From a virus, in IMG/VR virus record IMGVR_UViG_3300037587_000310, positions 1-45,266 of that record: 45,266 nt of DNA. One strand, 5' to 3'. The position numbers and the translations under genes were made by a program. Of the stretch, positions 3,121 to 40,471 are shown piece by piece. The stretch's first letter is position 1; every line of letters starts with the position of its first letter. Under the pieces are notes generated by a model, which did no database searches, was not told the DNA's origin, and worked only from the letters and a program-made list of their open reading frames with translations.

Positions 3121-3154
3121 TTTTCACATCCTTTCAAATATTTATGATTGCACA

Positions 3155-3201
3155 GGACGGCCTCAAGTTGTCTGCCTTTGCCTATTTGCCGTCCCGTTGA
3201 G
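3155..3201 (-). ncRNA. Short interlocked inverted repeats (possible pseudoknot)
   Basis: On the minus strand the order is P CTCAA (3201-3197), T GGACGGC (3194-3188), P' TTGAG (3166-3162) and T' GCCGTCC (3161-3155), with P' and T' contiguous. This is the same P-T-P'-T' topology as the three promoter-linked leaders. Here P is only 5 bp, there is no U-run after T' and no clear promoter upstream. It lies just before the ribosome binding site of the 66-residue gene. It could be a coincidence. Confidence 0.3.
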
Positions 3202-3225
3202 AAATTAAAATGATTAATAATGCCA

Positions 3226-3236
3226 GCCTCTCACTG
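3226..3236. repeat. 11-mer shared with 40281-40291
   Basis: GCCTCTCACTG on the plus strand occurs exactly here and at 40281-40291, both inside structured intergenic regions. Together with the 13-mer at 3358-3370 and 40265-40277 it marks the two regions as related or as carrying the same binding site. Confidence 0.5.
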
Positions 3237-3357
3237 GCTCGGACCTCTGGTCTGTCACGCCTGTTGGTGGCCTCTAATTCCACCCATGCGACCAATTGCA
3301 ACCCGCCGACGTCCGGGCGGTCTTCGTGAGCCGCTTTCGCGGATTCTCTCTTAATAA

Positions 3358-3370
3358 AGGTGCTGGCGGG
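3358..3370. repeat. 13-mer shared with 40265-40277
   Basis: AGGTGCTGGCGGG on the plus strand occurs exactly here and at 40265-40277. Here it forms one arm of the 8-bp stem closing 3361-3428. In the other copy it overlaps the small GGCG-TTCC-CGCC hairpin. Confidence 0.5.
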
Positions 3371-3484
3371 TAGGATTTATCGTTCGAGCGTACATCGCTT
3401 TTGGCTTCTCGTCCACCCGCCGCCAGCATCAAATATCAGAGGCAAAGTGGGCAAGCGAGCTATAGCGCAAATGGACTTAATACC

Positions 3485-3568
3485 TTACTTCAAACGGCTC
3501 TCTGCCTTTTGGGGATTTGCCATATTGTACGGTTCGTTAATAGCCTTATCCCGCTTATACGCCACCAC
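3485..3568 (-). CDS. Possible tiny ORF (27 codons)
   Basis: A GTG-initiated frame reading VVAYKRDKAINEPYNMANPQ and ending in SRLK lies 62 bases after the conserved 152-residue gene. The purine-rich AGGGGCAGG before the GTG could serve as a ribosome binding site, but spacing is tight. Composition is plausible for a protein. There is no recognisable family, and it could be chance. Confidence 0.22.
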   Translation of the reverse strand: MVAYKRDKAINEPYNMANPQKAESRLK

Positions 3569-3630
3569 CCCTGCCCCTGATATAAACTCTATTTACTTTT
3601 CAAATGTTCAGCAGGTGCTATCTCTGGGAA

Positions 3631-25309: not shown

Positions 25310-26050
25310 TTATACCTTCAATACTTTTATTGGTAGGAATTGCTTTTCAAGGGCAACTTTACCAGTCTCGCCCACAACCTGATTCACATCTTTCAGAATC
25401 AGAATTTCTTCGGCCTCTGGCAATACTGCATCCTTGCCATCTTTAACTTCATAATCAATACCCTTGACTGGTTTATCGCCCTTTATACCTTTGCCTGGCT
25501 TGCCGGGTTCACCCTGTAAGTTAGTCCATAAATCCCATGAACCATCAGGATTTTTGAATCGTATCAATTTCTCCTTGCCGCTCCATTCATGTTCAAGTGA
25601 GTCCCCTTTATCACCTTTAATGTTTTCGCCCGGTTTGCCCTTCAAGTCCACTGATTCACCCCATGTACCATCTGGGTTTTGAAAGCTCAGGCAAGTGCCA
25701 TTCCATCTGTGGGCAGAAGGCTTAGCATCCTTGCCATCTCGGTAATCCACGTCTTTTTGTGGAGTATATCCATCCTCGCCGTCTTTATAGTCAACGCCCT
25801 TTTTAGGAGTTATGCCGTCTTTACCATCTCGGTAATCCTTACCTTTGACAGGTGTCTTGCCATCTTCGCCATCGTGATAATCAACGCCCTTCTTGGGCGT
25901 TACACCATTCTCACCAGGTTCTCCCGGCAAAGTTATCTTTTGCAACTTTCCTTTAATATACAATTTGCCATCTTTGACTTTTATTATCTTGGCAAGCTCT
26001 GCTTGTATCAACTGCTCATCGGATTGCCTGAAATCTTGTCCAGTTCCCAT
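25310..26050 (-). CDS. Collagen-like repeat tail-fibre protein
   Basis: 246 residues dominated by repeats of the form KKGVDYHDGEDGKTPVKGKD (about 15-16 residues: G-V/K-D-Y-x-D-G-x-D-G-x-T-P), five copies at ~50-110. Further GxxGxx collagen-type segments (GEPGKPGKGIKGDK) follow. The two W-N-G-T-C / W-S-G-K segments with FQNPDGTWG and FKNPDGSWD are small paired modules. Such proteins form trimeric fibres or fibre connectors. It starts 2 bases from the portal gene. Confidence 0.65.
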   Translation of the reverse strand: MGTGQDFRQSDEQLIQAELAKIIKVKDGKLYIKGKLQKITLPGEPGENGVTPKKGVDYHDGEDGKTPVKGKDYRDGKDGITPKKGVDYKDGEDGYTPQKDVDYRDGKDAKPSAHRWNGTCLSFQNPDGTWGESVDLKGKPGENIKGDKGDSLEHEWSGKEKLIRFKNPDGSWDLWTNLQGEPGKPGKGIKGDKPVKGIDYEVKDGKDAVLPEAEEILILKDVNQVVGETGKVALEKQFLPIKVLKV

Positions 26051-39731: not shown

Positions 39732-40235
39732 TCATTTGATACTTTCGCATTGTTTCAATAATTCCTGCTTACGCTTATCTTTGGCTGATGCGGTCATTCT
39801 GTTTTCTTGTCTCATCACTTCAGAAGTAGAATTTACTATGTTATCTATTCTCTCATTATTGTATGATACATTCTTAACTACGTGGTCTCTATGGTGACCA
39901 CTTTCGGGCTTTTTGAGTACAGGGTGGTCTCTATAGTAACCACTTTGTTCCCAGAGCGGACCAGCTTTGAGTCTTTCGGGTACAACGTACAGAATACGCT
40001 TGTATTTGCCCTCATAAAGCACACAGAGCCATTCCTTGCCTATCAGGGACTTTACCGCCTTTATGATGTAAGAATGAGCTACGCCGAATTTCCGCCCCAT
40101 TGAACGATAACTCTCATAACAGCCGTTCTTACCGTATCTTAGGACATTACATATTAAAATCTTCTCTATCAATGACAACTCCGTTTTCTGTGCTATCCAG
40201 TCATAAACTTTGGTGTAGTAGATAGTCTCTGTCAT
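39732..40235 (-). CDS. Winged-helix DNA-binding protein (possible replication initiator)
   Basis: 167 residues. Residues 1-80 (YYTKVYDWIAQKTELSLIEK ... YESYRSMGRKFGVAHSYIIK ... LIGKEWLCVLYEGKYKRI) fit a helix_turn_helix winged-helix fold as in phage O-like or DnaD-like replication proteins. The tail carries a repeated S-G-Y/H-x-R-D-H-x-V-x-K segment and a Lys/Glu-rich helix. It is directly downstream of the elaborate leader at 40260-40437. With no polymerase or helicase in the genome, an initiator/loader is a natural role. It might be a transcription regulator instead. Confidence 0.6.
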   Translation of the reverse strand: MTETIYYTKVYDWIAQKTELSLIEKILICNVLRYGKNGCYESYRSMGRKFGVAHSYIIKAVKSLIGKEWLCVLYEGKYKRILYVVPERLKAGPLWEQSGYYRDHPVLKKPESGHHRDHVVKNVSYNNERIDNIVNSTSEVMRQENRMTASAKDKRKQELLKQCESIK

Positions 40236-40264
40236 GGTTGCATCCTTGCAGTTTATATGAAATT

Positions 40265-40277
40265 AGGTGCTGGCGGG
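40265..40277. repeat. 13-mer shared with 3358-3370
   Basis: Second exact copy of AGGTGCTGGCGGG, inside the 3' part of the leader and overlapping segment B' by five bases. Confidence 0.5.
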
Positions 40278-40280
40278 AAC

Positions 40281-40291
40281 GCCTCTCACTG
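40281..40291. repeat. 11-mer shared with 3226-3236
   Basis: Second exact copy of GCCTCTCACTG, just 3 bases from the 13-mer copy. In the other region the same two words are in the opposite order and 121 bases apart. Confidence 0.5.
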
Positions 40292-40443
40292 AGCTGGCCC
40301 TTATGAAGGCGAAGCGCTCTACCACTGCGTAGCAGTATCCTGTTTTTACCGCCATAAAAAAAGCTCCTGAGTAGGTCACCGGACAGCGATTTCCTCAGAA
40401 GCTTTTTTACACCTAATTTTATTTGTCCGGTAACCATATCAAC

Positions 40444-40471
40444 ACTATAGCCCCTAATAACTGTTTGTCAA
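40444..40471 (-). promoter_or_regulatory. Middle promoter (sigma70-type)
   Basis: On the minus strand TTGACA (40471-40466), 16-base spacer, TATAGT (40449-40444). The -35 is perfect, the -10 five of six. The predicted start is at 40437-40438, right at the leader's first segment P and its ATG. Confidence 0.75.

Follow-up and report, generated by a model that had tools for sequence, protein, structure and literature searches.

Which signal decides whether the winged-helix gene of this phage is transcribed, and what kind of RNA precedes it? The window, a 45-kb virus record in which nearly all genes lie on the minus strand, carries ahead of this gene a leader that a sequence-only reading had described as a riboswitch-like or autoregulated attenuator. 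Sequence inspection and a repeat search place the leader, referred to here as copy 3, on the minus strand, with the following features:

40471-40444, minus strand: promoter of sigma-70 type, TTGACA-16-TATAGT, matching the consensus at 11 of 12 positions
40435-40424, minus strand: P (GGTTACCGGACA), the 5' strand of P/P', from the repeat search
40422-40413, minus strand: B (AAATTAGGTG), inside the A-rich linker L1 (40423-40409)
40408-40394, minus strand: T (AAAAAAGCTTCTGAG), the 5' strand of the terminator stem, from the repeat search
40385-40374, minus strand: P' (TGTCCGGTGACC), inside the terminator loop and ending 2 nt before T'
40371-40357, minus strand: T' (CTCAGGAGCTTTTTT), the 3' strand of the terminator, extending with the U-tract over 40371-40356
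40269-40260, minus strand: B' (CACCTAATTT), a perfect 10-bp complement of B
40437-40201, minus strand: leader ORF of 78 codons, its ATG at the predicted +1 and hence leaderless by prediction
40355-40263, minus strand: 30-codon ORF (MAVKTGYCYAVVERFAFIRASSVRGVPAST), peculiar to copy 3
40235-39732, minus strand: helix-turn-helix/winged-helix gene, a candidate replication initiator (PHROG 270, E 5e-5)

Transcription is predicted to start at about 40437 on the minus strand, and P begins within ~2 nt of this point, at the 5' end of the transcript as the earlier reading had it. That reading gave P/P' as 11 bp and T/T' as 15 bp, each with one G-U pair; we find 12 pairs with one G-U in P/P', while the sequence and the repeat search agree on 15 pairs with one G-U in T/T', which is a predicted intrinsic terminator of ordinary type. 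The strands follow one another in the order P, T, P', T', so that P/P' crosses T/T' and the pairing is 1:3 and 2:4, with a loop of 8 nt between T and P'. The perfect 10-bp B/B' helix noted before the ribosome-binding site also stands, its quality being equalled in none of 2000 shuffles of the downstream segment. B' lies ~12 nt upstream of an AAGGA ribosome-binding site for the gene starting at 40235, and B/B' encloses both T/T' and the 30-codon ORF. This ORF has a CAGGAG Shine-Dalgarno-like sequence within T' and its stop within B', and may be a second regulatory ORF. The leader ORF covers P, T, P', and T' and overlaps the start of the winged-helix gene, which begins ~120 nt past T' and its U-tract, in a different frame. 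The entire leader folds with a z-score of -4.2. No convincing relatives of the leader DNA, the 30-aa ORF, or the winged-helix protein were found in annotated phages, plasmids, or viral contigs. The segment after copy 3 has CCCGCCAGCACCT and CAGTGAGAGGC in common with a 510-nt GC-rich stretch without convincing genes (3121-3630, minus strand; fold z -1.5), possibly a structured RNA or a mobile repeat.

The same layout occurs twice more in the window. In a promoter scan, seven sites on the minus strand matched the consensus at 10 or more of 12 positions; three of them (1831-1803, 40471-40444, and 5207-5180) directly precede a P..T..P'-T' arrangement, the sequences differing. An ungapped scan scored the P/T architecture of copy 3 at 63.0 and the other two at 62.5 and 54.5, compared with 48 for the best site elsewhere in the window and a maximum of 47.5 in 40 window shuffles. 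The two further copies comprise:

1831-1803, minus strand: copy 1 promoter, a perfect TTGACA-17-TATAAT
1787-1694, minus strand: copy 1 element, with P 1787-1774, T 1762-1747, P' 1722-1709, and T' 1708-1694; score 62.5-64
1791-1684, minus strand: copy 1 leader ORF of 35 codons, its stop 10 nt past T' and 4 nt before the next ATG
1679-1152, minus strand: gene behind copy 1 (PHROG 421, unknown function), for which no homologue was found
5207-5180, minus strand: copy 2 promoter, TTGACA-16-TATCTT
5147-5060, minus strand: copy 2 element, with P 5147-5137, T 5115-5103, P' 5083-5073, and T' 5072-5060; score 54.5
5148-5050, minus strand: copy 2 leader ORF of 32 codons, its stop 10 nt past T'
5033-4401, minus strand: gene behind copy 2, with a weak metallopeptidase match

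In copy 2, P begins ~26 nt past the predicted +1, that is, away from the transcript 5' end. The gene behind it has one moron-like homologue, 75% identical, in phage record L020 (5700-5990), where a tRNA-like sequence and a small HTH-like gene are found upstream and no leader is; this is the same gene under different control. Elsewhere in the window, a coding region contains imperfect 45-bp (15-codon) tandem repeats (25728-25907), likely belonging to a repetitive structural protein.

Because the scanner rules were fixed on the three window copies, other phages provide an independent test. Approximately 1.6 Mb of DNA, mostly from related phages, was scanned, with RNAduplex-based scanning dropped as too permissive. 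Eight more leaders of unrelated sequence were identified in seven further phage records:

L040, position 8138: before a tyrosine integrase
G021/L034, position 13457: before a tyrosine integrase 34% identical to that of L040
G013/L120: before a NUMOD3/homing endonuclease gene
G037/L092: before an O-like replication initiator (E 5e-28)
L061: before an HNH endonuclease
G018/L027: before an unknown gene
G006: two leaders (G006a and G006b), with identical copies in G007

The device also precedes small ORFs, and a similar promoter is found directly upstream of most of the other leaders. A bulge-tolerant scan returned 22 unique phage hits scoring at least 56, of which 10 have a sigma-70-type promoter (at least 9 of 12 matches) no more than 25 nt upstream of P; at decoy positions 60 and 100 nt further upstream, a near-identical set of 23 hits yielded 0 and 1 promoters. 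Promoters were scored as sigma-70-type throughout, assuming sigma-70-like recognition in the host. No hit of at least 56 with such a promoter occurred in 400 kb of a Phycisphaerae-assigned chromosome, lambda, P22, part of LE1, or 40 shuffles. When the scan was anchored on promoters instead, 8 of ~246 strong promoters scored 64-78, and none of 24,600 shuffled downstream regions reached 60. Two additional leader-like elements with weak promoters, in L120 (minus strand, index 6532) and L086 (minus strand, index 12954), each have an ORF opening at P. A ribosome-binding stretch resembling TTTATGAAAGGATAGGAAAATGA is common to L018/L100 (behind the G006a leader) and L101/L120/L097/L020.

No two of the 11 leaders could be aligned over their full length, and no homologous leader pair was found; it is the layout, not the sequence, that is conserved. 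Recurrence of a layout in unrelated sequence is an argument related to, but distinct from, classical covariation. The device was not found in most related records scanned, many of which are fragments, so absence there means little. Thirty Phycisphaerae loci with homologous integrases showed no credible leader, and a scan of the integrase alignment recovered solely the two known loci.

The G-U pairs had been taken as a sign of selection on RNA, and the larger set agrees. Under a scoring that gives G-U and A-C equal weight, the pairs in the helices of all 11 leaders divide into 282 Watson-Crick, 28 G-U, and 4 A-C (binomial p = 2e-5); the regions had first been located with a scanner favouring G-U over A-C, so that part of the G-U excess may stem from that selection. 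Inverted repeats maintained as DNA are expected to show G-U and A-C in equal number. Based on the 28:4 ratio and on recurrence on the transcribed strand, the structure is likely selected as RNA. Repeats acting at the DNA level were ruled out, the imperfect pairs being G-U on the transcribed strand and the promoter and U-tract, which share one strand, being strand-specific.

Constrained folding predicts comparable energies for the two folds. In copy 3 the P-fold is at -24.7 and the T-fold at -26.4 kcal/mol; the corresponding values are -26.7 and -29.9 in copy 1, -26.7 and -26.6 in L061, and -26.2 and -24.2 in G006a. The gap is 5.6-7.8 kcal/mol in G021, G018, copy 2, G037, and G006b and widest in L040 (-31.1 and -43.6 kcal/mol); it is thus no more than ~2 kcal/mol in three leaders, including copy 3, and no more than 13 in all. 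Across the 11 leaders, linker L1 is 45% A and loop L2 is 71% pyrimidine, and L3, between P' and T', is 0-2 nt; P' ending so close to T', P/P' can form just before T' emerges. In G021, L1 measures 3 nt with P extended, and both full helices cannot coexist there because the extended P lies so near T. Mutual exclusion of the helices is therefore well supported in some leaders, and we infer it for the rest. A pseudoknot containing both full helices, considered as a candidate structure, is unlikely where L1 is short and may form in other leaders.

A further shared trait is an ORF that opens at P. All 11 leaders have an ATG at -4 to +11 nt relative to the first base of P, in most cases no more than ~15 nt from where transcription is predicted to start. 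Its frame is open as far as T' in 10 of the 11, compared with 8 of 22 for the other two frames (Fisher p = 0.004) and with 4.5 of 11 predicted by shuffles; the exception is L040, with a stop inside P'. For single leaders the shuffle probability of staying open is 0.2-0.7, which makes each weak evidence individually. Most of these ORFs stop within 25 nt past T', near the ribosome-binding site of the next gene, while those of copy 3, G037, L061, and G018 extend further. The peptides are unconserved and mostly basic and hydrophilic (GRAVY -0.7 to +0.2), and no codon run is common to them, unlike what regulatory codons of the trp/his type would give. Taken together, the leader-ORF evidence is moderate, not decisive.

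Based on these observations, we consider it probable that the leader is a cis-acting transcription attenuator in which two interlocked helices exclude each other, and that translation of the overlapping leader ORF probably sets it. The attenuator part of the earlier proposal is thus supported by the predicted terminator, by recurrence of the layout, and by competing folds close in predicted energy; at the sequence level, a promoter, a short leader, and an intrinsic terminator stand in front of a gene, as an attenuator requires. The architecture, promoter linkage, RNA-strand selection, and open ORF rest on sequence statistics, while we infer from them that the leader switches, that the ribosome takes part, and in which direction the output responds. 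From the strong promoter, polymerase would transcribe P, with the start codon within or adjoining it, then the A-rich linker, T, the pyrimidine-rich loop, P', and finally T'. If P/P' has formed, T would be trapped in a closed loop hardly reachable by T', and transcription would read through into the gene; if P is occupied as P' emerges, T/T' would form and transcription would stop after ~100 nt. The likeliest occupant of P would be a ribosome that starts translation at the 5'-terminal AUG or close to it, whereas a ribosome already advanced onto T would block the terminator, so that the output would report the speed at which ribosomes load and follow polymerase. In copy 3, B/B' is compatible with T/T' and crosses P/P' and should favour the terminated state, and the ribosome-binding site of the 30-codon ORF would be hidden in T'.

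What speaks most against translation having a strong effect is a result in E. coli, where a terminator placed just after a gene is almost fully repressed and one within the first 100 bp of the coding region is not, suppression by the ribosome depending on its position (Li et al., PMC4824070); translation may accordingly count for less here than proposed. In the phage leaders T' ends ~80-115 nt from the transcript start, near that 100-bp border, so ribosome position could matter.

The same two-state attenuator might instead take its input in trans, from an antisense RNA, a sibling leader, or a phage protein that captures free P, leaving the ORF incidental. P is indeed the 5'-most element and stays unpaired until P' appears, the leader sequences differ as element-specific antisense control would have them, and the openness of the ORF exceeds chance only moderately. 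However, the 11 leaders yielded neither a complementary transcript nor a conserved binding motif, and an ATG at P in all 11 together with 10 open frames would require another explanation; we regard a trans-acting input as fairly unlikely.

It is distinctly unlikely, in our estimate, that the element does not switch at all and is a constitutive promoter-proximal terminator yielding a stable, pseudoknotted small RNA of ~100 nt or a fixed low level of read-through. The similar leader lengths (about 80-115 nt), a P' abutting T' as in a stacked pseudoknot, and a strong promoter directly before a terminator, as in a small-RNA gene, are all consistent with such an RNA. Against this, a protein gene lies close downstream of each element, neither sequence nor loop is conserved, and loops such as the 3-nt L1 of G021 leave no room for the two complete helices.

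It is very improbable that the leader is a riboswitch for a ligand or is autoregulated by the winged-helix protein, even though the extra B/B' helix and the 30-codon ORF are unique to copy 3. The Rfam search proposed with the earlier reading gave no match at gathering score in the window or in eight related loci, one tRNA aside; the best local hit was Phe_leader, with 23.3 bits against a cut-off of 55, and relaxed thresholds returned nothing credible. Neither a conserved aptamer-like core nor a common loop sequence is found among the 11 leaders, which speaks against a riboswitch in the ligand sense. As a general function, autoregulation is not supported, since the genes behind the device include integrases and HNH/homing endonucleases as well as a metalloprotease-like gene and small ORFs; it could be a local addition in copy 3, acting through B/B'. 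The replication-initiator label for the winged-helix protein is weak, with one weak PHROG match and Pfam HTH hits (HTH_36) below the cut-off. It gains indirect support from G037, where the device precedes a clear O-like initiator; no similarity between the two proteins was detectable. A toxin-like mRNA of type I, its short toxin ORF silenced by 5'-3' pairing, is scarcely credible: a 5' strand bearing the start codon does pair near the 3' end of a ~100-nt RNA, but the peptides have the basic, mostly hydrophilic, and unconserved character described above and are always upstream of another gene.

The translation-set attenuator can also be put more broadly, if more tentatively. It is possible, though we would put it at somewhat less than an even chance, that a 5'-terminal, often leaderless ORF lies over competing 1:3 and 2:4 helices so that transcription of an integrase, a homing endonuclease, or a replication initiator depends on where the first ribosome stands, and that this class of switch is new and recurrent in planctomycete phages, its architecture maintained or re-created without sequence conservation. 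The nearest uncultivated phages have terminases ~68-78% identical to that of the window, and five genome-assembly loci, most of them Phycisphaerae/Planctomycetota, have ones that are 67-72% identical; these values point to a planctomycete as the most likely host. How planctomycete phages regulate their genes has hardly been explored. If the broader proposal is correct, one compact RNA layout, not a conserved sequence, would control unrelated phage genes and couple integration, homing, and replication functions to the translation state of the cell, and it would represent an RNA class that alignment-based searches miss, since topology alone is conserved.

The layout seems to be a recurrent RNA on/off switch of an undescribed kind: targeted literature searches returned no description of such leaders, although most subscription papers were outside their scope and an earlier report may exist. 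The trp, his, and erm/mef leaders are similar in combining a short ORF with alternative helices, one of which is an intrinsic terminator. Classical attenuators are built on strands that overlap (1:2, 2:3, 3:4) and rely on regulatory codons; unlike them, the phage leaders pair 1:3 and 2:4, with neither a shared strand nor a conserved peptide. Within the classical group, induction of mef(E)/mel requires an 8-codon leader peptide (PMC4335068). The canT element of Tn916 and put of HK022 are mobile-element RNAs that favour terminator read-through, as the phage leaders would. Both are cis-acting RNA antiterminators. canT, studied on a 452-bp fragment, is processive and acts on distant and heterologous terminators (PMC11658703), unlike the phage P/P', which appears to be directed at one adjoining terminator.

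The remaining system, pyrBI (pyrL) of Escherichia coli, has a promoter-proximal leader peptide, as is predicted for the phage. The pyrBI leader ORF runs through the terminator, as does the leader ORF here. The pyrBI leader is longer and is not known to have an upstream strand that pairs with the terminator loop, and its signal is UTP-dependent pausing in the service of nucleotide synthesis; in the phage, by contrast, P/P' crosses the terminator stem and abuts T', and the start of the ORF is in P or beside it. When the pyrBI leader peptide is translated with the ribosome following RNA polymerase closely, its terminator is kept from forming (PMC5021804), and it is pyrBI that the phage leader would most resemble if its ORF is translated.
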